Positions 49,739 to 62,489 of a DNA stretch of 64,000 bases are shown piece after piece. The translations under genes were made by a program, and so were the position numbers. The notes under the pieces were generated by a model. It saw only the letters and a program-made list of their open reading frames with translations. It had not been told where the DNA came from and did not search any database. Numbering within the stretch: the stretch's first letter is position 1; the number at the start of each line of letters is the position of its first letter. Origin of the DNA: Methylocystis silviterrae (GTDB lineage Bacteria > Pseudomonadota > Alphaproteobacteria > Rhizobiales > Beijerinckiaceae). The stretch covers positions 124,001 to 188,000 of the forward strand of contig NZ_JABVWW010000006.1 of assembly GCF_013350005.1 (NCBI RefSeq), written 5' to 3'.

Positions 49739-51001
49739 TCAGATTCGCGCGCCGGAAACGGCGCCCCAGGTCGTCCGCCAGCGCGTCTTAACGAAGATCA
49801 AACCGACGAGACCGAGCAGCGCAAGGAAACCGAAGAAGACGAACCCGGCGGTGAAGCCGCCCGTCGCTCCTTTGGAGTAAGCGAGCGTCTTGGCGAGGAA
49901 AAATCCGCCAAACCCACCCGCGGCGCCGACGAGGCCCGTCATCGCGCCGATCTCCCGGCGGAACCGCTGCGGCAGCAATTGAAACACCGCGCCATTGCCC
50001 ATGCCGAGCGATAGCACGCCGACAGAGAACAGCGCCACCGCTGCAAAGGCGACGGGCGGCAGCTGCATCAGACCCCATCCCGCAACGCCTTTCGCCGGGG
50101 CCGGTCCCGCCGGCAGAAAGGCGACGGCGAAATAGCAGGCGGAAACGAGAACGAAGAGGAAGCACAACGTCTTCACCCCGCCGATGCGGTCCGCGATATA
50201 GCCGCCGACGGGCCTGAAACCAGAACCGAAGGCGACGATCAGCGCCACCATGAGGCCCGCGGCGACTCCCGTGGCGTGATACTGCGTCGTGAAATAGAGC
50301 GGAAGCGCCGAAGCAAGGCCAACGAAGCCGCCGAAGGTGATGAAGTAGAAAAACATGAACCAGCGGCTGTCGGAGTCCGCGAGCATTCTGCCGTAGTCGC
50401 CAAGCGCAATCGTCGTTTTGCCGCCGGGCGCGTCCTTAGCGGCCAGCGAATAAATGAGCAGCACCAAAACCATCAGCGCGAGCAATACGCCATAAACGGC
50501 CTGCCAACCGTAGGCCTCGGCGATCGAGGGCGCAAAAAGCGTGTCGAGCACGACCCCCATATTGCCGGCGCCGGCGATGCCCATCACCAGACCCTGATAT
50601 TGCGGCGGATACCAGCGGCCGGCCTGCGGCAAGGCGACGGCGAAGGACGCGCCGGCGACGCCGAGGGACAAGCCGAAAAGCGCGATGGCGATCGAACTGT
50701 TCAGGCCAAAGACGCACACCAGAGATACGGCGAACATCACGATCGCCTGCGCGAGGATGCCCGTCATCTTCGGGCCGATCGCGTCGGCGAGGAGGCCGAG
50801 CGGAACGCGGAAGAATGCGCCGCCGAGAACCGGAATCGCGACAAGCGAGAGTTTGTCCTCGACGGAAATCGGCATGTCTTTGGCGATGTAGATCATCAGC
50901 GGGCCGAGTGAGACCCAAGCCATGAAGCTGATATCAAAGTAGAGGAAGGCCGCAAGCAGCGTCGGCCAATGACCGGCCTTTTTAAAATCCGACAGTTTCA
51001 T
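49739..51001 (-). CDS. narK: Nitrate/nitrite transporter (NarK/NasA, MFS)
   Basis: This is a 420-aa major-facilitator protein with about twelve hydrophobic helices. NarK-type signatures include the GxxxGxxxG-rich GLVMGIAGAGNMGVVLDTLF and GAMTGLVGAAGGFGGFFLAK, the two nitrate signature segments. FRVPLGLLADAIGPK contains the conserved Arg of TM2. It overlaps the nitrate reductase gene by 20 bp and is followed by the kinase fusion. It imports nitrate for assimilation. Confidence 0.95.
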   Translation of the reverse strand: MKLSDFKKAGHWPTLLAAFLYFDISFMAWVSLGPLMIYIAKDMPISVEDKLSLVAIPVLGGAFFRVPLGLLADAIGPKMTGILAQAIVMFAVSLVCVFGLNSSIAIALFGLSLGVAGASFAVALPQAGRWYPPQYQGLVMGIAGAGNMGVVLDTLFAPSIAEAYGWQAVYGVLLALMVLVLLIYSLAAKDAPGGKTTIALGDYGRMLADSDSRWFMFFYFITFGGFVGLASALPLYFTTQYHATGVAAGLMVALIVAFGSGFRPVGGYIADRIGGVKTLCFLFVLVSACYFAVAFLPAGPAPAKGVAGWGLMQLPPVAFAAVALFSVGVLSLGMGNGAVFQLLPQRFRREIGAMTGLVGAAGGFGGFFLAKTLAYSKGATGGFTAGFVFFGFLALLGLVGLIFVKTRWRTTWGAVSGARI

Positions 51002-53774
51002 CAGATGCTCCTTCTTTCATGCTTGTTTGGTCCTCTCGCGCCGAATCCATCGCAGACTCGGCGGCGAGAGAAACCTTGATGAGACGTTGAATTTCCGGTC
51101 GGCAGGAGCCGCAATTGGTGCCTGCGCGGGTGGCCTTGCCGACGTCGAGCGCTGAGCGGCAGCCTTGCTGGATCGCGGCTTCGATTTTCTTTTGGCCGAC
51201 GCTAAAGCATGAACAGACGAGCGGACCGTCATCCGTCAGCTGTCGGCCCGAGCGACCGGACAACAGCGAAAGCCGCGCTGACTGATCGAGACGATCGCGG
51301 GCGAAGAGTTCGAGCGCCAAATCCCAAGATGGCGAAACAGGCGCCAGCGCCCAGATGAGCGCTGCGCGCTCCCCGACGAAGGCTGCGCCCGAGAGAAGGC
51401 TCTTCGTTTCATCGATCAATTGAATGACGTCTTCACTCGTCGCCGCGGCGCGGATGACGTCTGTCCAGCCGTCATCTGACAGGTCGCCGGCGACGCGGTA
51501 GCCGTAGCCATTGCCGACGGCGACCCGCGCCCACCATACGCCGTCGGGCAGCGTGATCGAGCCGCGCGAGAGGAGGAAGCCCTGACGCGCAAAGCGCAAA
51601 GGCGTGACGATGGCGGGCGTCGCCTTGGATTCCGGCTGACCCGAGAAGGGGTCAACGAAGGGCGCGACGAGCGCGCCGATGCGCGCATCCTCGGCGGTTT
51701 CATCGGTCCAGTGGATCGGCGCGAAAACATGCCCCGCAGGCTGGCGATCCGTCGCCACCGCACGCAAGACGCAGCTTCCATAGGGCGTCGCGATGCGAGC
51801 GAAGCCGCCGTCTTCTACGGCACAGCGCTCAGCGTCCGACGGATTGATCTCCACGAAGGGTTCAGGAAGATGCCGCGCAAGGCGAGGGCTCGCGCCCGTG
51901 CGCGTCATCGTGTGCCATTGATCGCGGATGCGGCCGGTGTTGAGCCGGAGCGGAAAGTCCTTCGTCAATGTGGTCGCCAACGTCGGCGTCGCCGGCGCGA
52001 TGAATGTGGCTCGACCGCCTTGCGAGAAGAACGCGCCGTCGGCGAAGAGGCGCGCGCGGCCCTTGCCGTCGCCATCGCGGATTGGCCACTGCGTCGGCTC
52101 GAGCGCGTCATATTCAGCGTCGCTCAGCCGCGCGAGACCGCCAATATCGAAAGCCCGCGCTCCGTCATTCTCGAATGCCGAAAGCGCGGCGTGTTCGCGG
52201 AAAACATCTGCAGATGAGCGATAATCAAAGCCTGCAAAGCCCATGCGTCGCGCGACATCCGCGAAGATCGCCCAGTCGGCGCGCGTTTCTCCCGGGGCAG
52301 GCATAAAGGCGCGCTGACGAGAGATTCGGCGCTCCGAATTCGTCACCGCGCCGCTCTTTTCGCCCCACGCCTGCGCCGGCAGGAGCAAATGCGCGCCGCT
52401 ATTGATCGTATCGTTCGACGTCACATTATCGGAGACGATGAAGAGTTCGAGCTTGCTAAGAGCGGCGCGCGCGGCATTGGCGTTTGGAAGCGACGCCGCC
52501 GGATTGGTGCCGACGACCCACAGCGCCTTGATGTCGCCGCGCGCGATGGCGTCGAACATCTGCACCGCCTTCAGCCCCTCGCGCGTCGCCATGCGCGGCG
52601 CATTCCAGAAGCGGCGAACGCGGTCGATGTATGCGGGCTCGAAGCCCATATGGGCGGCGAGGCTGTTGGCGAGCCCGCCGACTTCGCGCCCACCCATGGC
52701 GTTGGGCTGACCCGTGAGCGAAAAGGGCGACGCGCCGGACTTGCCGACGCGGCCCGTCGCGAGATGGCAATTGATGATCGCGTTGACTTTGTCCGTTCCC
52801 TGCGCCGATTGATTGACGCCCTGCGAGAATGCCGTGACCGTGCGGGGCGTTTGCGCGAACCATCCGAAGAAGGACGCAATGTCGACCTCGCGCAGTCCGG
52901 TCGACGCGGCAGTCGCTTCGATCGACGGCGCGAGACTCCGCGCGGCCTTCAGTGAGCGCTCCAGGCCAGCCGTATGACGGCCGATGTAATCCGTGTCGAA
53001 GGCGCCGAGCTTCGCGAGATAGACAAGCAGGCCGCAAAACAGCGCCTGATCCGCGCCTGGCCTGATCTGCAGAAACAGGTCGGCGCTTTCAGCCGTCGGC
53101 GTGCGGCGCGTGTCGATGACGACGAGCTTGGCGCCGCGCTCCTCCTTGTTGCGCATGATGCGCTGGAACAGAATGGGATGACACCAGGCGGCGTTGGAGC
53201 CGACGAGCACGATGAGATCGGCTTCGTCCAGATCCTCGTAACAGCCCGGCACGGCGTCGGCGCCGAAGGCGCGCTTGTGGCCCGCGACCGTGGAGGCCAT
53301 GCACAGGCGCGAATTCGTGTCGACGTTGGCCGAGCCGATAAAGCCCTTCATCAGCTTGTTGGCGACGTAATAGTCCTCGGTCAGCAGCTGACCGGAGAGA
53401 TAGACCGCGACGGCGTCGGGACCGTGCTGGTCGACGATGCGGCGAAATCCGTCCGCGGCTTGGTCCAGCGCCGTATCCCAACTCGCGCGCGCGAAGGCGC
53501 CGTCAGACTGACGGCGCATCGGATAGAGAAGGCGCCCCTCCAACCCAAGCGTTTCGCCGAGAGCTGAGCCCTTAGAACAGAGCCGGCCGAAATTTGCAGG
53601 ATGGGTCGGATCGCCAATCACGTCGGCGCCATTTGCGGACGCGAGCACGCCGCAGCCGACGCCGCAGTAAGGACATGTAGAACGCGTCGCGGCCGCCTGA
53701 ATCGATGGCGCGCGCTCTTGCAGATTTTCTTGCGGCGCAGGCGCCAGGACTTCATCGAGCATGAGCGGCCTCAA
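50982..53774 (-). CDS. nasA: Assimilatory nitrate reductase catalytic subunit
   Basis: This is a 930-aa cytoplasmic Mo-bis-MGD enzyme reducing nitrate to nitrite. The N-terminal [4Fe-4S] motif is CPYCGVGCGV...GRLCSKG, and the molybdenum-ligand Cys lies in NSRLCMAS. Typical cofactor-binding segments follow (VGSNAAWCHPILFQRIM, VVGTNPAASLPN). The C-terminus carries a BFD-like [2Fe-2S] domain (LVCSCFSVGQKKIEAAIQQG, then NCGSCRPEIQRLI), as in NasC/NasA of other bacteria. The start overlaps the upstream flavoprotein gene by 4 bp. The electron donor is probably the FAD reductase at 57113. Confidence 0.96.
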   Translation of the reverse strand: MRPLMLDEVLAPAPQENLQERAPSIQAAATRSTCPYCGVGCGVLASANGADVIGDPTHPANFGRLCSKGSALGETLGLEGRLLYPMRRQSDGAFARASWDTALDQAADGFRRIVDQHGPDAVAVYLSGQLLTEDYYVANKLMKGFIGSANVDTNSRLCMASTVAGHKRAFGADAVPGCYEDLDEADLIVLVGSNAAWCHPILFQRIMRNKEERGAKLVVIDTRRTPTAESADLFLQIRPGADQALFCGLLVYLAKLGAFDTDYIGRHTAGLERSLKAARSLAPSIEATAASTGLREVDIASFFGWFAQTPRTVTAFSQGVNQSAQGTDKVNAIINCHLATGRVGKSGASPFSLTGQPNAMGGREVGGLANSLAAHMGFEPAYIDRVRRFWNAPRMATREGLKAVQMFDAIARGDIKALWVVGTNPAASLPNANAARAALSKLELFIVSDNVTSNDTINSGAHLLLPAQAWGEKSGAVTNSERRISRQRAFMPAPGETRADWAIFADVARRMGFAGFDYRSSADVFREHAALSAFENDGARAFDIGGLARLSDAEYDALEPTQWPIRDGDGKGRARLFADGAFFSQGGRATFIAPATPTLATTLTKDFPLRLNTGRIRDQWHTMTRTGASPRLARHLPEPFVEINPSDAERCAVEDGGFARIATPYGSCVLRAVATDRQPAGHVFAPIHWTDETAEDARIGALVAPFVDPFSGQPESKATPAIVTPLRFARQGFLLSRGSITLPDGVWWARVAVGNGYGYRVAGDLSDDGWTDVIRAAATSEDVIQLIDETKSLLSGAAFVGERAALIWALAPVSPSWDLALELFARDRLDQSARLSLLSGRSGRQLTDDGPLVCSCFSVGQKKIEAAIQQGCRSALDVGKATRAGTNCGSCRPEIQRLIKVSLAAESAMDSAREDQTSMKEGASDETVGF

Positions 53775-55360
53775 TAGACGTCCTGTTGATAGCGCCCGCT
53801 CTTCTTGAGCTGCGCGACGAAGGCGACCGCTTCATCGGCGTTGCGGGCGCCGAATTCGGCGACGACGTCGACAAGCGCGCGTTCGACATCCTTGGCCATG
53901 CGCTGCGCATCGCCGCAGACGTAAAAATGCGCGCCTTCCGCAAGCCACGCCCATAATTCACGGCCGGACTGGCGCATGCGGTCCTGCACATAGAATTTTT
54001 CCGCGCCATCACGTGACCAGGCGAGCGACAGACGCGTGAGCAGATTTGTCGCCTTCATCGTTTCGAATTCGTCGGCGTAGAAGAAATCGCAGGCCGAACG
54101 CTGGTGTCCAAAGAAGAGCCAGTTCCTGCCGGGCGCGCGGGTCGCCGCGCGCTCCTGCAGAAAGGCGCGAAATGGCGCGACGCCGGTGCCAGGCCCGATC
54201 ATGATGATCGGCGTCGCGGGATCATCCGGCAGGGCGAAGCCATGCGCCGACTGCACATAGACCGGAAGGCTGTCGCCTGGCGCGATGCGCTCGGCCAGAA
54301 AGGTCGAGGCGACGCCAAGACGCTTGCGCTTGCCGACGACATATCGAACCGCGTCGACCGTCAGCGAGAGGCGTCCCGGCGTCGCCTTGGGGGACGAGGA
54401 GATGGAGTAAAGGCGCGGCTGCAGCGGATCCAGCGCTTCGACAAAGGCTTCCGGATGTGGCCGGGCGCCTGGAAATTTCTGAAGCACGGAGAGCACGTCG
54501 AGCGTTGCCGCGTCGCCGTCAGGATCTTTGCCCTGCGCCAGCAAACGCGCTTTTTCACGCTGTCCGCCGCCGGTAATGAAGGAGATCAACTCGAAAAGCG
54601 CATCAGGCGCCGGAGATAGCGAAACCTCGCTTAGCAATGCTTCGCGCAGAGTTGAGTTACGCACGGGCGTCACATGCGAGGCGCCGAGCATGGCGATGAT
54701 CTGATCGACGAGGCCAAGATCATTTTTCGGAAACACGCCGAAACTGTCGCCGACCTTGTAGCTGAGTTCGCTGGCGCCGAGATCGAAATCGACGTGCCAG
54801 GTCTCCTTCTCCGAGCCTTCCATGTTCAGCCGACGGCGCGAAGTAAACGTCGCAAGCGCCGGATTGTCGCGCGAGCAGCCGGGCGCCGAAGCGACAGTGG
54901 GTCCAACTTGCGCAACAATGGTGGGCGCCGGCGAAGGCTGATCCAGCTCCGCCGCAAGCGCCTTCAGCATGCGCGCCGTGTCCTTGCCGCCGGGTGCGCA
55001 GAGATTGAGGCGAGCCTCCTTGCGCGCCGCGAGCGCGTCCGCATAGGTCTCGCAATTATAGCCGCACTGGCCGCAGTCTTGTTGCGCCATGGCCGCCATC
55101 AGGCGACGACGCAACGGACGGCCTTGCGCAAGCTGCATGCGCGATTCGAGCGCCAGCGTCTGGTCATGCCACGGCGCCTCGCCATCGTCGCTATCGGCGC
55201 CAGCCATGACGGCGGCGTTGGCCTCTGGCGAGAGCGGCGTGATCGAGCTGTCATCGGGCGCGGCAAAGCCGGCAAAGAAGCCGCTGAGCCAGGCGCGCTG
55301 CTCGGGCGTGAAAGGCGCGTTCGGCGGAATGAGAAAAGGCGGAGAGGACATATGGGTCAC
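53771..55360 (-). CDS. Iron-sulfur flavoprotein, CysJ-like reductase without FMN domain
   Basis: This 529-aa protein is the probable electron donor for the NirA-type nitrite reductase. The C-terminal 370 residues are a CysJ/cytochrome P450 reductase-type FAD/NADPH module: RLYSISSSP for FAD, GPGTGVAPFRAFLQER and YVCGDAQRM for NADPH, and a terminal RYQQDVY. The flavodoxin domain expected in CysJ is absent. In its place residues about 90-130 hold CGQCGYNC...LNLCAPGG, a four-cysteine iron-sulfur motif. The N-terminus (EQRAWLSGFFAGF) resembles that of the adjacent NirA. It overlaps both neighbouring genes by 4 bp. Confidence 0.9.
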   Translation of the reverse strand: MTHMSSPPFLIPPNAPFTPEQRAWLSGFFAGFAAPDDSSITPLSPEANAAVMAGADSDDGEAPWHDQTLALESRMQLAQGRPLRRRLMAAMAQQDCGQCGYNCETYADALAARKEARLNLCAPGGKDTARMLKALAAELDQPSPAPTIVAQVGPTVASAPGCSRDNPALATFTSRRRLNMEGSEKETWHVDFDLGASELSYKVGDSFGVFPKNDLGLVDQIIAMLGASHVTPVRNSTLREALLSEVSLSPAPDALFELISFITGGGQREKARLLAQGKDPDGDAATLDVLSVLQKFPGARPHPEAFVEALDPLQPRLYSISSSPKATPGRLSLTVDAVRYVVGKRKRLGVASTFLAERIAPGDSLPVYVQSAHGFALPDDPATPIIMIGPGTGVAPFRAFLQERAATRAPGRNWLFFGHQRSACDFFYADEFETMKATNLLTRLSLAWSRDGAEKFYVQDRMRQSGRELWAWLAEGAHFYVCGDAQRMAKDVERALVDVVAEFGARNADEAVAFVAQLKKSGRYQQDVY

Positions 55361-57111
55361 GCCACGCTCTCCTCATTGGCGAGACGGCGAAGCGTCTCGA
55401 TGTTGTGACGGTGCGCGAAGCCGACGAAGGTTTCGTCCGCGTTCGCCCGGTTCTTTCGATAGGCGCGCAGAATTCTCGCCACCATTGCCGGCGCTTCTTC
55501 CGCTTTCACATTTTGATAAAATTCGGAGGCAATGCGTGCGTCTTCCGCAAAGCCGCCGCCGACGAAAATGTGATAGCCCTCGACCGTGTCGCCCTCGTCA
55601 TTCACCGGCACGCGCGCGCCGATCAGTCCGATGTCTCCGATGTAATGCTGCGCGCATGAATGATGGCAGCCGGTCAAGTGAATGTTGATCGGCGTGTCGA
55701 TGGGCGCCGCCGTCTCGCAATAGGCGGCGATTTCTTCGGCATGCCGCTTGGTGTCGGCGGCGGCGAAGCGGCAGCCGAAATTGCCTGTGCAGGCGACGAG
55801 TCCGGCGCGAATCGGCGAGGCTTGCGTCGAAAGACCCAGCGCCTCGATCATCGCGACAGATTCCGCGACGTGCTCGTCGGCGACGCCGGTGATCAGCACA
55901 TTCTGCCAGACCGTGAGACGCAGCCCGCCGTCGCCGAATTGGCGCGCGATCTCGGCGAGACCGCGCGCCTGCTCGGGGGTGAAACGACCGACCGGCAGCA
56001 TTACGCCGATCCAATTGAAGCCCGGCTGCTTTTGCAGATGCACGCCGATATGCGCGGCGCGATCCTGACGCGGGCGGGAGTCGATCGCAGCGGCGTCTAC
56101 GCGAAGCAGCTTGCGGCCCAGCTTTTCTTCGACGGCGGCGAGGAATTTGTCGAAGCCCCACGCGTCGAGCACATATTTGAGCCGCGCCTTCGCTCGGTTG
56201 GTGCGATCGCCTTGTTCAATGAAGACCCGCAGAACCTTGTCGGCGACCTCCACCGCCTCGTCCGGCGAAACGATCACGCCCGTATCGCGGGCAAAATCCT
56301 TGTGACCGGTAATGCCGCCAAGCGCGAGACGGAAATAGACGCCCGGCGCGACTCCATGCTCGTCGTTCACGACAACGGCCTGAAAGCCGATGTCATTGGT
56401 GTCTTCCAGCGCACCGATCAATCCCGCGCCGTCAAAGGCGATGTTGAATTTGCGCGGCAGACCATACAGCGAGCGGTCGTTGAGGATGTGATGGTGCATC
56501 GCGCGCGCATAGGGACGCGTATCGATGAGTTCCTGCGGATCGACGCCGGCGGTCGGCGTGCCGGTGATGTTGCGGATATTGTCGGCGCCGGAGCCCTTGC
56601 TCCACAGTCCGAGATCCTGAATCGCCTCCAAAATATTGGTTGCGTTTTTCGGCGCGATCTCGCGGATCTGGATATTGGCGCGCGTCGTCACATGCAGATA
56701 GCCGCCGCCATAATTTTCCGCGAGATCCGCAAGCCCGGCGAACTGCCAATGCGTGAGCGCGCCATTAGGAATGCGCAGCCGGCACATATAGGAATCCTGC
56801 GCCGGCGCGACATAGAAGAGTCCATAGTAGCGCCAGCGAAAATTGTCGGCGGGCTTTGGCGGCGCATTCTCCTTCGCCTGAGCGGCAAGCCGCGGCCAGG
56901 CGTCGAATGGATGCTCTTCGCGCTTCCATTTTTCCTGATCGTTAAGCTTGCCGCCTGCGGCGATGACGCGATCCTGCGCCGAGATATGCGCGGCGTCCGG
57001 TCCCATCGGCTGCGCTTGCGCGGGCATCGCCTTTTGTCCGCCGCGCGCGGAGAAGCCGGCTGCAAAACCTTCGAGATAGCGCTTCTGATCGAGCGTGAAA
57101 TCGACGGACAT
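55357..57111 (-). CDS. nirA: NirA-type sirohaem nitrite (or sulfite) reductase
   Basis: This 584-aa protein has duplicated sirohaem-reductase folds: DSYMCRLRIPNGALTHWQF and VTTRANIQIREI near the front, then GVMLPVGRFTPEQARGLAEI and LTVWQNVLITGV. The [4Fe-4S]-sirohaem ligands are CTGNFGC and GCHHSC. Its place between nitrate reductase and nitrate-regulated genes indicates six-electron reduction of nitrite to ammonium, though the fold alone also fits sulfite reductase. It starts 2 bp after the FAD reductase stop. Confidence 0.93.
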   Translation of the reverse strand: MSVDFTLDQKRYLEGFAAGFSARGGQKAMPAQAQPMGPDAAHISAQDRVIAAGGKLNDQEKWKREEHPFDAWPRLAAQAKENAPPKPADNFRWRYYGLFYVAPAQDSYMCRLRIPNGALTHWQFAGLADLAENYGGGYLHVTTRANIQIREIAPKNATNILEAIQDLGLWSKGSGADNIRNITGTPTAGVDPQELIDTRPYARAMHHHILNDRSLYGLPRKFNIAFDGAGLIGALEDTNDIGFQAVVVNDEHGVAPGVYFRLALGGITGHKDFARDTGVIVSPDEAVEVADKVLRVFIEQGDRTNRAKARLKYVLDAWGFDKFLAAVEEKLGRKLLRVDAAAIDSRPRQDRAAHIGVHLQKQPGFNWIGVMLPVGRFTPEQARGLAEIARQFGDGGLRLTVWQNVLITGVADEHVAESVAMIEALGLSTQASPIRAGLVACTGNFGCRFAAADTKRHAEEIAAYCETAAPIDTPINIHLTGCHHSCAQHYIGDIGLIGARVPVNDEGDTVEGYHIFVGGGFAEDARIASEFYQNVKAEEAPAMVARILRAYRKNRANADETFVGFAHRHNIETLRRLANEESVA

Positions 57112-57112
57112 T

Positions 57113-58342
57113 TCAGGCCGCCTCTTGCATCGGCGCGCCGAACATCAATTCGTCGCGCATAGATGAAATGTCCGCGCCGGAGCGGATGAGATCGAGAACA
57201 TTCGCGGCTCCGTTCGTATCTCCCACCAGGATCGCGCCCACCAGCCTGTCGTCGCGCTCGACAAGCTTGCGATAGAGGCCCATGCGCGGGTCCTTGCAGA
57301 CGATGCGGCGCGCATCGCCTTCGCCGAGATAATCGCCGGCCGAAAAAACACGCACGCCGGAGACTTTCAGATTGGTGGAGACGACGCTGCCGCCATAGGA
57401 CGCGTCTTGTCCGGCGAGTCGCATGGCGAGAACGCGGCCCTGCTCATAGGCAGGCTCGACGAGGCCATAACAGACGCCGCGATGTTCGGCGCATTCGCCG
57501 ATGGCGAAAACGCCGGGTTCGCTCGTCTTGAGGCCATCGTCGACCTTCACGCCTCGCCCGACGTCAAGACCGGCCTGTCGCGCGAGTTCGGCGTTGGGCT
57601 GAATGCCGACGGCGAAAATCACGGCGTCGGCTGGAATCGTTTGTCCGTCGGCGAACTCTACATTCTCGACTCGGCCCGAACCGCTGATGCGCGTCGCATT
57701 GGCGTTCAGAAGCACGCGCACGCCTTTTTCTTCAACGAGTAGACGCAGGATGTCGGCGCCGGCCGCATCGAGTTGGCGCTCCATCAGCCGATCCATGACA
57801 TGGGCGAGTGTCACGTCGACGCCGCGTCGCGCTAGGCCATAGGCCGCCTCCAGTCCGAGAAGGCCGCCGCCAATCACAAGCGCGCGCATCTCCTTTCCCA
57901 GCCGGGACAGCGCCTCGACATCCCTTACGTCGCGAAACACGTGAACGCCCGGAAGATCGGCGCCCTCGATCGGCAGCCTTGCCGCGCGCGAACCCGTGGC
58001 GAGCGCGACTTTCGAATAGTCGACACTCTCTCCATTATCGAGAAGGAGTCGCCGCGACGCGGCGTTGATCTTTATGACCTTGCAGCCGCTCAGAACCTCA
58101 ACGCCGGCGGCGCGCCACCATTGCCGGGGCTTGAGTTCGATGTCGTCGACCGACAATTCCCCGGCCAGCACTGAAGACAGCAGCACGCGATTATAGGCAA
58201 GCCGCGGTTCGTCTCCGATCACGAGAATGTCGTATCGACCCAGCGCCCGGTTCGTCAGCTCCTCGACGAAACGCGTGGCGGCCATGCCGGCGCCGACGAC
58301 GACAAGCTTCTCGCGACTTCTGCAATCCTGCAATCCAGTCAT
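57113..58342 (-). CDS. FAD-dependent NAD(P)H reductase (NirB N-terminal/NasB-like)
   Basis: In this 409-aa protein, two dinucleotide folds are evident, VVVGAGMAATRFVEEL for FAD and VIGGGLLGLEAAYGLARRG for NAD(P)H, with GVFAIGECAEHRG near the C-terminus. It matches the first third of NirB and stops before the [2Fe-2S] and sirohaem parts, so it is a stand-alone reductase. It is probably the NADH:nitrate-reductase electron donor, feeding the BFD domain of NasA. It is the first gene after the NasT-regulated leader. The start at 58342 has only a weak ribosome site (CAGAG). Confidence 0.88.
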   Translation of the reverse strand: MTGLQDCRSREKLVVVGAGMAATRFVEELTNRALGRYDILVIGDEPRLAYNRVLLSSVLAGELSVDDIELKPRQWWRAAGVEVLSGCKVIKINAASRRLLLDNGESVDYSKVALATGSRAARLPIEGADLPGVHVFRDVRDVEALSRLGKEMRALVIGGGLLGLEAAYGLARRGVDVTLAHVMDRLMERQLDAAGADILRLLVEEKGVRVLLNANATRISGSGRVENVEFADGQTIPADAVIFAVGIQPNAELARQAGLDVGRGVKVDDGLKTSEPGVFAIGECAEHRGVCYGLVEPAYEQGRVLAMRLAGQDASYGGSVVSTNLKVSGVRVFSAGDYLGEGDARRIVCKDPRMGLYRKLVERDDRLVGAILVGDTNGAANVLDLIRSGADISSMRDELMFGAPMQEAA

Positions 58343-58422
58343 GTGTCGACTCTGCTGAACGGCCGAACGGTCCGGTCACAGGTCGCTTTGCCTTACGGGT
58401 GATGAGAACGGGCAAGACGACC

Positions 58423-58459: not shown

Positions 58460-58508
58460 GAGCCCAGCTTTGGGCTCGTTCCGGCGGACCGGCGGTCGTC
58501 GTTGACCG
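58460..58508 (-). ncRNA. ANTAR-target leader RNA (P1 and P2 stem-loops) for NasT
   Basis: On the minus strand P1 is CGGTC-AACGAC-GACCG (58508-58493) and P2 is GAGCCC-AAAGCT-GGGCTC (58477-58460). Both have six-base loops with A at position 1 and G at position 4, the rule known for ANTAR-protein targets. The linker is 15 nt. P1 starts about where a transcript from the sigma54-like promoter would begin. NasT, an ANTAR protein, is encoded just upstream. Confidence 0.7.
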
Positions 58509-58518
58509 ATGAGGTGAT

Positions 58519-58535
58519 TGCACATTTCGGGCCAG
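58519..58535 (-). promoter_or_regulatory. Sigma54-like promoter of the nas operon
   Basis: The minus strand reads CTGGCCCGAAATGTGCA. GG and GC are exactly 10 bp apart, as in -24/-12 promoters (consensus TGGCACG-N4-TTGCA), with a few deviations. The predicted transcript start is at about 58509. Confidence 0.55.
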
Positions 58536-58619
58536 AGGCGCCGGCGTGGTTTTTCCCGAGGAATGCGGGCGTTTGGCGCTGACCAACGGCAGCAGGCTGC
58601 GTTGTATGGCGCCGAATGC

Positions 58620-58638
58620 TTAGGCGCGAGGCGCCTAA
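58620..58638. repeat. Palindrome shared with the 61911 region, copy A
   Basis: TTAGGCGCGAGGCGCCTAA is a perfect 8-bp inverted repeat around GAG. Fourteen of fifteen core bases recur at 61911-61925 upstream of the outer-membrane gene. It could be a protein-binding site or part of a transcript hairpin after nasS. Confidence 0.6.
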
Positions 58639-58669: not shown

Positions 58670-59818
58670 TCACAGGCGCTGTCCGATATCGAAGCCGGCG
58701 AGATAGTCCGCGTAGCTTCGGCCGCCGAAAGAGGGTCCCGCAAAGGCCCCGATTTCGCGCTGAATGTGCGCGCATTCGATCGCGGCGTCAAAAAGATCCG
58801 GACGCAGGACGCTCTTCGCGCGATCGGCCATCTCTGGCGAATGGCGCGTCTGCCCCCAGCGGAGCATCTGCGCATAGATCCATTCAGCTTGCCGTGGATC
58901 CGGCCGCATGGCGCCGTCTCTTCCGATGATAAGGTAATTGGCGTCGCTTCGTTCGTCGCGCGCCTTGACGCGCAAATGGCCCGTGAGAACGCGGCGGATG
59001 ATCTCGGCGTCGACGCCGACATATTCCGGTCGCGAGAGAATTTGCGAAACCTCGCCTAGGTTTTGCGGCTCGTCGACGAAGGAGGCCCCCCTATCGAGCG
59101 CGCGGATCAGCGCAGCGACGAGATTCTGGTCATCGTCGGCGAAGCTTTCGCGCAGAGCGAGGACTTTCTCGGGCGCGCTCGCGAAAATCTCGCAGCCGAA
59201 ATGCAGAATGACGCCAACGCCGGCGTCGACCGCGACAGAACTCCAGGGCGCGCCGACACAAAAGCCGTCGAGCTGACCGCGCGCCAGATTTTCGACCATG
59301 TAAGGGGGCGGGAGAACGATCAACCGCAGGTCTTCATCCGGATCGACGCCGCCTTCCGCCATCCAGTAGCGCAGCTGATAATTGTGCATGGAAAAAGGAA
59401 AGGTCATGCCGAAGGTCAGAGGCTCACGTCCCTCGGCCCGTCGCCGCGCGACGAGCTTGACGAGCGCGCGCGCGGTTTGCGCCGGATGCGCGACCTCGCC
59501 TTCCGCGGCGAGTTCGGCATAAAGCGCCGTGGACACCGCGATCGCATTGCCGTTCATCGCGAGATTCATCGGCGCGACAAGCGGGACTCGCACATGGCCC
59601 AGTCCGAGCGTGGAAGCGACCGCCATTGGCGCCAGAAGATGCGCCGCATCGAAACGGCCGATGGCGAGCTTGTCTCTAATGTTCGCCCAGGACACTTCGC
59701 GGATCAGTTCGATGTCGAGACCTTCCGCCTTGGCGAAGCCCTTATGCGCGGCAATCAACAGCGCGGCGGCGTCGACGAGCGGAATGAAGCCGATTTTCAC
59801 ATGCGCTTCGCCGCTCAT
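58670..59818 (-). CDS. nasS: Nitrate-responsive sensor NasS (NrtA/CmpA-like, cytoplasmic)
   Basis: This 382-aa protein of the NrtA/CmpA nitrate-binding family contains VKIGFIPLVDAAALLIAAHKGFAKAEGLDIEL, FDAAHLLAPMAVASTLGLG, FPFSMHNYQLRYWM and GFCVGAPWSSVAVDAGVG. There is no signal peptide or transporter gene beside it, which separates NasS from periplasmic NrtA. In known systems NasS holds NasT inactive and releases it on nitrate or nitrite binding. Its ATG overlaps the nasT stop by 4 bp, so the two proteins are made together. Confidence 0.93.
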   Translation of the reverse strand: MSGEAHVKIGFIPLVDAAALLIAAHKGFAKAEGLDIELIREVSWANIRDKLAIGRFDAAHLLAPMAVASTLGLGHVRVPLVAPMNLAMNGNAIAVSTALYAELAAEGEVAHPAQTARALVKLVARRRAEGREPLTFGMTFPFSMHNYQLRYWMAEGGVDPDEDLRLIVLPPPYMVENLARGQLDGFCVGAPWSSVAVDAGVGVILHFGCEIFASAPEKVLALRESFADDDQNLVAALIRALDRGASFVDEPQNLGEVSQILSRPEYVGVDAEIIRRVLTGHLRVKARDERSDANYLIIGRDGAMRPDPRQAEWIYAQMLRWGQTRHSPEMADRAKSVLRPDLFDAAIECAHIQREIGAFAGPSFGGRSYADYLAGFDIGQRL

Positions 59819-60483
59819 TTAAACATCTCCGCCGCAGTGATGACCGAGCGTGCAATTTCGATAATCTTTTTGTTTTCGCGCATGGCGGCGCCGCGCATCA
59901 ATTTGTAGGCGTCTTCTTCGGACAGCTTCTTCGCCTTCATCAATATGCCTTTGGCGCGTTCGATCGTCTTGCGCTCCTCGAGATCGGATTTGGCCTGATC
60001 GAGATCATCCTGAAGCTTCGAGAAGGCGTTGAACCGCGACACGCACAGATCGAGGATCGATTTGATGCGCTCCTTTTTCAACCCGTCGACGATATAGGCC
60101 GAGACGCCAGCGTCGACCGAGGCTTGAATCGACGCCGTATCGCTCTGATCGACAAACATGGCGATCGGCCGACGCACGGCGCGACTGACCTGAAACATTT
60201 GTTCAAGCGTATCGCGCGAAGGATTCTCGAGATCGATCAGGATCACGTCAGGGTCGCTGGCGTAGATGTGCTTCAGCAGATTGTGCATTTCGCTGATGCG
60301 CTCGACCTGTGTGAAGCCGGCGTCACGCAGTCCCTCCTCGAGGATCAACGAGCGAATGGGGCTTTCGTCGACAATGACGATCTTCAATTCACGGCGTCCA
60401 GTGAGCGCATGTATGGGTCGCGCCAGCGGCGGCGCATCGCTGTAAAGCTCCGCGATCCGCCCGCCGGGCCGAGACCAACGCAC
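59815..60483 (-). CDS. nasT: Nitrate antitermination regulator NasT (receiver-ANTAR)
   Basis: This protein of up to 222 aa has a pseudo-receiver domain (IVIVDESPIRSLILEEGL, DPDVILIDLENPSRDTLEQM) followed by a coiled segment and the C-terminal ANTAR domain (RKTIERAKGILMKAKKLSEEDAYKLMRGAAM). It binds two-hairpin leader RNAs and prevents termination when NasS is occupied by nitrate. The GTG start at 60483 lies just after the stop of the outer-membrane gene. A later TTG near 60387 would give a more usual length (about 190 aa), so the start is uncertain. Confidence 0.94.
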   Translation of the reverse strand: MRWSRPGGRIAELYSDAPPLARPIHALTGRRELKIVIVDESPIRSLILEEGLRDAGFTQVERISEMHNLLKHIYASDPDVILIDLENPSRDTLEQMFQVSRAVRRPIAMFVDQSDTASIQASVDAGVSAYIVDGLKKERIKSILDLCVSRFNAFSKLQDDLDQAKSDLEERKTIERAKGILMKAKKLSEEDAYKLMRGAAMRENKKIIEIARSVITAAEMFK

Positions 60484-60484
60484 G

Positions 60485-61738
60485 TTATATCTTGAAGCGC
60501 AACGACATGCCCGCCTGCCAGTTCTTCATGATCTGCGGACCGTTGAGATTCTGATAGACGGGCAAACCTGCCTCGACCGCGACCGTCACATTGTCATAGC
60601 CGATAAATTTGCCGCTGATCGTCGCGCCGCCGAAGAGTTCGACCCGCTGCCCGCCGTAAAAGGCCGGATTTGCCGGCACGGCCGGGCCGCGGATTTCCGG
60701 ATCGAAGCCGCGAATCGGGCCCTGCGTCGAACCGCTCACGCGGAAGGTAGTGGTGAGTCCGGGCGTCCAAGTGTAGCCGCCCCAGGCGTTGAATTCATGC
60801 AGATCGCCCCATCGGTAGCCCCCGGAAGGATTGGGACCGAGCGGGAAGCGCAGGCGATATTCGAGCAGGTAGTCCCAGGAATAGCCCAGTGAATTTGCGG
60901 CCAGAGGGAAGCGCCCGCGATAGCCGAGCCCCCACGACCACGGTCCCAGATAGCCCGCATAGACAATGCCAGGTAGCAAATCGAATGTGCCCGTGCCGGG
61001 CTGCATCCCATAGAACGCGCGGATGTTGCGGCGGGAACCGTCGGGCAGAAGAAAGTCCTTGAACGTGGCGGTGTAGCTGCCGGCTGGCAAGGAGATGCCG
61101 AGAGAGAGCTGGATGCGGTGGACGTCGTCCTGATAGATGCGATAGACGCCCGACAACGTGACGTCGGCAAGGCTCGTCGTTCCCGGCAAACTTCTGCCAA
61201 GCGGCAGGATTCCGGCCGTCCCTTTCCAGGTAAGGGCGTTGAGATTTTTCTCGATCATGCCGGCCGTGAGAACCACCGCGAAATCTTTTGTGACGCCGTA
61301 GCTGAGCCCGACAATCTGGGTCGCAACCGCAATATTTTGCGGAATGATGCGCAATGTCTGCTTGGGATTGAGAAAGAACGGCACCGTCGTGACGATATAT
61401 TCGTTGGAGACCGTGCGCGTTCCCATCTTGATGCCCGACAGATTGGCGAACACCGGCGTAATGGAGAAAACGAGTTTTCCGGCAGCCGGCATATCGGCGC
61501 CGAAGACCCCCATGGGCGCCGGCGGCGGCGGAGGCGGCGCGACCGGCGCGAGGGACGGCGGCGGCGCTTGAAGTTGTATCGCAGTCGCCTCGGACGACGC
61601 GTTCTTGCGGGGCGCGGCGTTCGCGTCGGTCGCGACGAGCGCGGCCGCCACGACTATCAATCTCGCGCCGCGCCATGGCGGCTGTCGGCGCATCGATCGC
61701 TGGGACTGTGCTCTCTTCATCGCGAACCTCATCTGCAT
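60485..61738 (-). CDS. Outer-membrane beta-barrel protein of the nas locus
   Basis: This protein has 417 aa from ATG 61738; nearby in-frame ATGs at 61732 and 61720 would also keep the signal peptide, which ends VVAAALVATDANA. A Pro-rich linker (PPPPPPAPMG) follows. The rest is alternating hydrophobic/aromatic beta strands ending in MSLRFKI, typical of outer-membrane barrels. It resembles the Phenol_MetA_deg-type transporter group. It is the first gene of an operon with nasT and nasS (1 bp before nasT), suggesting a nitrate-regulated porin; the substrate is inferred. Confidence 0.8.
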   Translation of the reverse strand: MQMRFAMKRAQSQRSMRRQPPWRGARLIVVAAALVATDANAAPRKNASSEATAIQLQAPPPSLAPVAPPPPPPAPMGVFGADMPAAGKLVFSITPVFANLSGIKMGTRTVSNEYIVTTVPFFLNPKQTLRIIPQNIAVATQIVGLSYGVTKDFAVVLTAGMIEKNLNALTWKGTAGILPLGRSLPGTTSLADVTLSGVYRIYQDDVHRIQLSLGISLPAGSYTATFKDFLLPDGSRRNIRAFYGMQPGTGTFDLLPGIVYAGYLGPWSWGLGYRGRFPLAANSLGYSWDYLLEYRLRFPLGPNPSGGYRWGDLHEFNAWGGYTWTPGLTTTFRVSGSTQGPIRGFDPEIRGPAVPANPAFYGGQRVELFGGATISGKFIGYDNVTVAVEAGLPVYQNLNGPQIMKNWQAGMSLRFKI

Positions 61739-61763
61739 CTCGCCTGCGCGCGCCCCAGAAACG

Positions 61764-61813
61764 AAAAAAGCCGCTGCCTGAACGCCTGCGAAGCAGACGT
61801 TCAGGACAGCGGC
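61764..61813 (-). terminator. Strong leader terminator before the outer-membrane gene
   Basis: GCCGCTG pairs with CAGCGGC and CCTGAACG with CGTTCAGG (one bulged base), capped by CTGC/GCAG, then six T residues on the minus strand. It is the strongest intrinsic terminator in the window. It lies inside the leader of a gene it precedes, a hallmark of attenuation. Confidence 0.85.
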
Positions 61814-61823
61814 GATGCTGGGG

Positions 61824-61839
61824 GGCCCTTCTGTGGACC
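61824..61839 (-). ncRNA. ANTAR-like hexaloop hairpin in the outer-membrane gene leader
   Basis: GGTCC-ACAGAA-GGGCC on the minus strand forms five pairs (one G-U). The six-base loop has A at 1 and G at 4. It ends 10 nt before the terminator stem. A matching P1 hexaloop was not found; the hairpin upstream (61846-61859) has loop GCTTGC or TT. Confidence 0.45.
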
Positions 61840-61876
61840 GGGTGACGTCGCAAGCGACGCCCTCGCGCCAAACGGA

Positions 61877-61892
61877 TGCAATGAAGGCGCCA
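61877..61892 (-). promoter_or_regulatory. Sigma54-like promoter of the outer-membrane-nasTS operon
   Basis: The minus strand reads TGGCGCCTTCATTGCA. GG and GC are 10 bp apart and the -12 element TTGCA is perfect. The predicted transcript start is at about 61866. Confidence 0.65.
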
Positions 61893-61910
61893 CCTACAGC
61901 CAAGCTGTAT

Positions 61911-61925
61911 GGCGCGAGTCGCCTA
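61911..61925. repeat. Palindrome shared with 58620, copy B
   Basis: GGCGCGAGTCGCCTA matches copy A (GGCGCGAGGCGCCTA) at 14 of 15 positions. Confidence 0.55.
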
Positions 61926-62489
61926 GTCGCGCTGAACGACAGGCTTTTGCGAGCGTTTGCGGTTACACACGCTGGCAAGCAAAACGGCCCCGAGGAACCA
62001 TTCGCGTGGCGCGCTTTGCTTGAGAGGCGGCAGCGAACGCCGAAAAAATTCGCATTCTGCCGCCAACAGCGACAGCCGCCCGGATTTTCTTGACCGGCTG
62101 TATGATGCAGCGCCGTGGGAGGAACGGTCTATCATCGGGCCACGACGTCGACGATTTTTACATTACGGAGATCGTCAGCTCGCCGAGCTTGAAACCGAAT
62201 TCGCTCGAGCCGCTCGACCATTCGAAGCTAAGATGAGCTTGCTGGACGCGACGAGTGCGTGCGGCTTCCGCAGCGCCCTCGCCCGATGAAATATCGGATG
62301 GGCCCTATAACCGCCGCCGGGCTTCCGAGTCCCGGCGCGAGGGGACCACGGCGACGCCTTCGAAGACTGAAAACGGCTAACGAGACGTCTTCAGACGTGT
62401 TTGAGATGAGTGCTTGGTGCCAGGAGAGGACTCGATGTTATTTTTTAACCATCTGAAAATATTTATAAAAATGCATGTGACAATTTGTC

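Follow-up and report, generated by a model that had tools for sequence, protein, structure and literature searches.

A predicted sigma54-started nas leader with putative NasT-bound ANTAR hairpins, and a terminator-type sister leader before nasT-nasS, in Methylocystis silviterrae

The cited literature establishes ANTAR leaders, NasS-NasT and the control of nas genes by Ntr (PMC3369931, PMC3795266, PMC5424462, PMC6759348, PMC3369936), and the kind of system described here is therefore already known. Leaders of the nasF/eut type carry two tandem hairpins whose hexaloops have A at position 1 and G at position 4 (A1/G4), and are associated with nitrogen genes (PMC3369931, PMC3369936, sections cited). 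In Klebsiella oxytoca, nasF is subject to general nitrogen control as well as ANTAR control in the leader, as would be the case here, but the regulator is the one-component NasR instead of NasS-NasT, and the leader holds an intrinsic terminator (PMC5424462, PMC3369936, as excerpted). Paracoccus denitrificans resembles the present locus in having nasT-nasS upstream of nas, Ntr control, and a NasT-bound, two-hairpin, non-coding leader of about 200 bp before nasA; in that species the test of an NtrC site concerned nasT, and the cited portions call the nasA site not yet identified (PMC3795266, PMC5424462). Most actinobacterial ANTAR RNAs lack a recognised intrinsic terminator, like the leader described below, but in about 37% of them the RNA overlaps the start codon or the ribosome site, an arrangement shown to repress in mycobacteria (PMC8164766, cited part). 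Furthermore, a sigma54 survey predicted promoters before ANTAR genes and reported enrichment at NAD(P)H-nitrite reductases (PMC12316311, cited part). The nas leader of Methylocystis silviterrae shares the tandem A1/G4 hairpins with the nasF/eut type and differs from it in that the first hairpin, P1, lies at the predicted 5′ end, the linker to the second hairpin, P2, contains a hairpin of its own, and no intrinsic terminator overlapping P2 was found. In contrast to the described Paracoccus arrangement, a sigma54 box abuts the nas ANTAR hairpin, and the nasT-nasS operon has a box of its own, followed by a terminator leader.

The window, by which we mean the whole stretch of 64,000 nucleotides that was analysed, carries a nas operon on its minus strand. 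Its first gene (57113-58342) encodes a nasB-like FAD/NAD(P)H nitrite reductase subunit, matching TIGR02374 over residues 13-405 with 405 bits, which is under the full-length cut-off. It is followed by a NirA-family siroheme reductase (55357-57111; NF007126, 1002 bits) and a CysJ-like flavoprotein reductase (53771-55360; NF004859, 865 bits), both above cut-off, and by a molybdopterin oxidoreductase with a BFD domain (50982-53774) that is by context an assimilatory nitrate reductase; its top NCBIfam match was formate dehydrogenase alpha, followed by NasC, both under cut-off. A NarK-type nitrate/nitrite MFS transporter (49739-51001; TIGR00886, under cut-off) completes this set of minus-strand genes. 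Upstream, on the same strand, domain matches identified nasS (58670-59818), an NMT1_2-type sensor protein, and nasT (59815-60483), with a receiver and an ANTAR domain; the receiver-ANTAR gene thus adjoins an NMT1-type sensor gene, which we took as the mark of a NasS-NasT pair. NasT gave the sole ANTAR domain match in the genome. The original prediction had placed nasT immediately upstream of the leader; it is nasS that directly precedes it, with nasT lying before nasS. A 327-bp gap on the minus strand separates nasS (59818-58670) from the nasB-like gene (58342-57113), and this gap contains an untranslated leader of 165 nt without a U tract.

Within the gap we confirmed a -24/-12 promoter-like box, TGGCCCGAAATGTGCA, at 58534-58519 on the minus strand, with the exact GG-N10-GC spacing that had been claimed for it. 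The box has a TGGC-type -24 and a TTGCW-type -12 element, shows one mismatch to the sigma54 consensus TGGCNCGNNNNTTGCW, and was the top-scoring of 140 positions upstream of P1 when the general sigma54 site weights were applied. By convention the C of the GC element is numbered -12, and with the box numbered in this way the predicted transcription start falls at the base of P1, at 58508 (or 58507, a G), as originally proposed; the near-constant distance between box and P1 in relatives (see below) is consistent with this assignment. Sites of the -24/-12 type are not enriched in the window, where 38 were found with up to 2 mismatches as compared with a shuffled mean of 55, and the box alone is therefore no evidence of a promoter. 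The two minus-strand hairpins were likewise found where the original prediction (58460-58535) had them: P1, CGGTC-AACGAC-GACCG, at 58508-58493, and P2, GAGCCC-AAAGCT-GGGCTC, at 58477-58460, each with A1 and G4 in its hexaloop. Tandem pairs of A1/G4 hexaloops are by themselves not unusual at the composition of this DNA, with 2 in the window and a mean of 1.1 (maximum 4) in shuffles, which favours the idea that the hairpins could be a chance or DNA-level feature of a sigma54 promoter. When a GG-N10-GC box at 24-30 nt upstream was required as well, however, the window yielded a single instance and 60 dinucleotide shuffles none, by criteria that were chosen after the finding was known. The Rfam collection gave zero families at gathering score in the window; close to the leader there were two matches at E 7-8, which lay on the opposite strand and were taken as chance.

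Further evidence against a chance feature came from P2, in which 4 of the 6 pairs showed changes on both sides and 97.1% of alignment cells were paired. Its covariation amounted to 0.208 against 0.132 in shuffled alignments and at most 0.086 in slid controls; the shuffles never reached the observed value (0/500), a count that is no probability since the sequences are related and close orthologues are non-independent. Set A1 (a label unrelated to the loop position) held 13 of 19 leaders and set A3 held 17 sequences, rows having been dropped. In the P2 loop of relatives, extracted with a script that imposed neither base, G4 was present in 26/26 leaders and A1 in 22/26, with G at position 1 in the remaining four (L013, L015, L027 and L033). 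P1 was nearly invariant across the leaders, and it lacks covariation because it scarcely varies. The proposed covariation check of both stems was thus passed by P2, while P1 was too constant to be judged.

The P1-P2 linker of the M. silviterrae leader is 16 nt long and contains a predicted 4-bp hairpin, CCGG-TCCG-CCGG, at 58492-58481 on the minus strand. Linkers of the nas-type leaders measured 13-19 nt, and a hairpin of at least 4 pairs was present in 10 of the 12 leader types in the linker table, with a differing sequence in the second family; this count had no chance control. In the Enterococcus faecalis eut/EutV leaders, linkers are 5-12 nt long and induction was harmed at 14 nt, according to the cited part of PMC3369931. 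On the basis of these EutV lengths we infer that the spacer hairpin may bring the long linker down in length. The leaders L034 and G006 fit this idea poorly, their linkers being long and devoid of a 4-bp spacer hairpin. L122 (G032:C153), a second leader of the nas type within one genome with 9% contamination, has by eye a linker of 7 nt and no spacer hairpin. A long-range pairing of the spacer sequence CCGGTCC with GGACC ahead of the start codon seemed compensated in four leaders, was absent in the G006 leader (L124), and was discarded.

The box and P1 were retained in 16 of 16 copies, comprising our own and those of 15 close relatives. When 140 upstream positions were scored, the best sigma54-like site preceded P1's GGTC by 27 nt in 24 of the 25 genus copies, in one of which a neighbouring repeat's box scored equally, and by 26 nt in the remaining copy; the RNA models used in the searches, R1 and R2, contain just 2 nt upstream of this GGTC. 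In the second family the distance was 27 nt in 4/6 and 28 nt in 2/6 leaders, and three of the six boxes end in GT, not GC. One locus, L091 (G029:C164), carries promoter and P1-P2 as a 100-bp direct repeat, which in this 64%-complete genome may be real or an assembly artefact.

With R2 the element was detected at 25 places in 23 of the 39 genus genomes (E < 1e-8), and 6 of 15 second-family genomes had it at E <= 1e-4; in the latter family it lies upstream of an nrtA-like gene in the 5 compared loci. In L034 and L036-L039 of that family, the nrtA-like gene after the element has an RR-type signal and a GAGGG ribosome site. An ANTAR domain match was present in 31 of the 39 genus genomes and lacking in 8, three of them at least 97% complete. 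At E < 1e-8 the element occurred in 23 of the 31 ANTAR genomes and in none of the 8 others, and the other 8 ANTAR genomes have the sister type of leader described below, so that by the criteria used one or the other leader was present in 31/31 genomes with an ANTAR protein as compared with 0/8 without. Weaker R2 matches (E above 1e-5) exist in the genus, some of them in genomes without ANTAR protein; G201:C30 (L139) matched at E 3.2e-5. Candidates without P1 and box were set aside, namely weak matches in the relatives G005, G013 and G018; so was G000:C4, a weak second match within the own genome (E about 0.001), which likewise has neither P1 nor a box. At the level of the order (R1, 297 genomes), 7 of 30 fetched matches had nas context and box; in the other 23, including L035, L040 and L041 at E < 1e-3, tblastn found no nas gene and inspection by eye no box, and they were rejected. 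At the level of the class (R2, 385 genomes), none of 29 fetched out of 57 non-own matches had a correctly placed box by eye; searches over 40 genomes had stricter filters, and these order- and class-level results do not establish absence elsewhere. Together with the compensatory changes in P2 and the shuffles of the pair-plus-box architecture, the co-occurrence with ANTAR proteins makes a chance or DNA-level origin of the hairpins extremely unlikely. We therefore conclude that, as originally predicted, the minus-strand hairpins are most likely an ANTAR-target RNA for the NasT encoded upstream, a reading supported by hexaloops, P2 covariation and genome distribution.

A sister leader precedes the porin-like-nasT-nasS operon, spanning 61892-61764 on the minus strand. 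It comprises a sigma54 box, TGGCGCCTTCATTGCA (61877-61892), with a predicted start at 61866; two A1/G4 hexaloops, in P1 GGTCC-ACAGAA-GGGCC and P2 CAGC-ATCGCC-GCTG (61807-61839); and a strong intrinsic terminator, GCCGCTG...CAGCGGC followed by T6 (61764-61813), whose 5′ arm overlaps P2. The terminator region folds at -47.1 kcal/mol over 85 nt (z -8.2). The design would imply a feedback of NasT upon its own operon. A mechanical open reading frame (60485-61978, minus strand) crosses this leader; the likelier starts are in-frame ATGs at 61738, 61732 and 61720, past the terminator. Its product, called porin-like by guess, gave no Pfam or NCBIfam match at E 0.001.

A pattern for P2 plus terminator matched at 33 places, spread over 25 of the 39 genus genomes, against 1 match for the reversed control; this exact pattern of the classic leader occurred in 25 of the 31 ANTAR genomes, in 0 of the 8 genomes without ANTAR protein, and once in the own genome. 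Both leader types are also present in Methylocystis rosea SV97. In all 30 classic leaders that were fetched, the best sigma54-like site lay 50-72 nt before P2. Their P1 loop has A1 in 28/30; G4 was imposed by the script and is uninformative. In seven genomes the classic leader is flanked by nasS and an nrtA-like gene, and nasB lies further along. In L132 (G713:C4), whose genome gave three ANTAR matches, there are two closely spaced nasT-nasS pairs, and after one of the two comes a classic leader before another gene.

Conceivably, the nas leader could itself be a classic attenuator of the nasF/eut kind, in which P2 competes with an intrinsic terminator inside the leader. This is the general model for ANTAR leaders in the cited part of PMC3369936 and the design of the sister leader in the same window, and antitermination had been assumed in the original prediction. 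We found no intrinsic terminator after P2 in the nas leader, either from T-runs or in automatic scans of the minus strand from P2 to the gene. The longest T-run was 2-3 in 23 of 26 nas-type leaders, 4 in 2 and 5 in 1, whereas T4-T8 follows the P2-overlapping stem in 30/30 classic leaders. Since the simple automatic scan also missed the clear sister terminator, it counts as a weak negative, and the scarcity of T-runs is the main negative evidence. In addition, no later hairpin displaced P2 in the predicted folds. Terminator switching is therefore not supported at the nas leader, and we consider classic attenuation improbable there.

The region between P2 and the gene is predicted to hold a hairpin P3 (58423-58452), a block GGTCGTCTTGCC (58411-58422) that complements P1, and GGCAAAGCGACC (58381-58392), all on the minus strand. 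Of 27 leaders, 22 have the core of this anti-P1 block, GGTCGTC, without a change; extended to GGTCGTCTTGCC, it complements most of P1. Folds in which the anti-P1 pairing was enforced lay 0-4.4 kcal/mol above the best one in those 12 of 14 leaders where the block was recognised (14 of the 27 leaders were folded). Among shuffles, 0.8-7.5% in the genus and 6.8-54% in the second family equalled the strength of the duplex with P1, and the anti-P1 fold is therefore suggestive, not shown. The mixed modelling evidence thus suggests that GGTCGTCTTGCC could form a fold competing with P1; another possible cause of its conservation is that it doubles as the 5′ arm of a predicted hairpin P4, of which GGCAAAGCGACC would be the 3′ arm. 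Here and below, the duplex-strength and ribosome-site counts, like the T-run counts, refer to 26 of the 27 leaders (G032b left out).

One possible consequence of such a fold is translational control, whereby the anti-P1 fold would mask the ribosome site without NasT and NasT would free it. In line with this, the ribosome-site stretch of 15 of 16 close orthologues was predicted to be opener when P1/P2 was enforced than when anti-P1 was, leader conservation extends right to the ATG, and a translational level of nas regulation was proposed in Paracoccus (PMC5424462, section cited). The other nine leaders, however, split into 5 that agreed, 2 that were level and 2 that were opposite. Moreover, the start-codon stretch was opener with P1/P2 in 7 of the 16 close orthologues, equally open in 2 and less open in 7, which include the leader of the window itself, and the modelled openness of this stretch gives masking no support. 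The modelling consists of thermodynamic folds, and we regard translational control as conceivable but rather unlikely. A Rho-dependent end of transcription in the leader, blocked by NasT at the 5′ end, would suit an untranslated leader of this length that has no U tract; this alternative is deduced from the layout, and we are similarly doubtful of it.

We consider it very probable, judging from sequence and comparison, that the nas operon has a sigma54-started leader with P1 and P2 bound by NasT, and that nitrogen hunger and nitrate are both required, in agreement with the dual input originally proposed. RNA polymerase with sigma54 would start at 58508 or 58507 once nitrogen limitation is signalled by a bound activator, in all likelihood NtrC. 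Genes for RpoN (420 bits) and NtrC (701 bits) are present in the genome, above the respective cut-offs, which fits the earlier claim of NtrC control; matches to a Paracoccus-type NtrC consensus upstream of the box were obtained only with 2-3 substitutions, none of them convincing, so that NtrC is a presumed activator. A conserved candidate activator-binding site is the block GGCGCC-N16-GGCGCC at 58608-58635, about 74-101 bp upstream of the box, with both GGCGCC motifs conserved in 15/15 aligned copies (own included; of 16, L008 was left out as cut by a contig end). The match here is exact; the block is not rare, however, because 4 matches occur in the window with 1 mismatch allowed versus 2.4 expected. 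By eye, similarly spaced GGCGCC pairs also lie upstream of several nrtA leaders.

After initiation, the first transcribed bases would fold as P1, and the spacer hairpin would put P2 near P1. Nitrate would free NasT from NasS, and NasT would then bind both A1/G4 hexaloops, a step proposed because Paracoccus NasS-NasT and other ANTAR leaders behave in this way. Bound NasT would stabilise P1 and P2; with NasT absent, GGTCGTCTTGCC could pair with P1 and refold the leader. This refolding may lower expression by masking of the ribosome site or Rho-dependent ending, not by an intrinsic terminator, a suggestion that we make tentatively and with the balance somewhat against it. Expression of nas would thereby require nitrogen hunger plus nitrate, while the textbook, terminator-type sister leader would let NasT control its own operon. 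Equally tentative is the view of the nas leader as a terminator-less bistable switch, built from a sigma54-fixed 5′ end, the spacer hairpin and the GGTCGTCTTGCC antisense block, in which NasT would pick P1-P2 over the anti-P1 fold and so decide on translation masking or Rho exposure, alongside the textbook sister.

What looks new is the shared geometry of sigma54 box and P1, together with the spacer hairpin, the absence of a recognisable terminator and the occurrence of two designs in one genome; a limited literature search found no description of such an arrangement. Judging from the near-constant distance between box and P1, promoter and RNA switch may have evolved as a single unit, and their joint signature could be used to seek ANTAR targets. 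In one genome of the methanotroph genus Methylocystis, a single regulator would serve neighbouring operons through leaders of two designs, which offers a natural comparison of ANTAR action with and without an intrinsic terminator.
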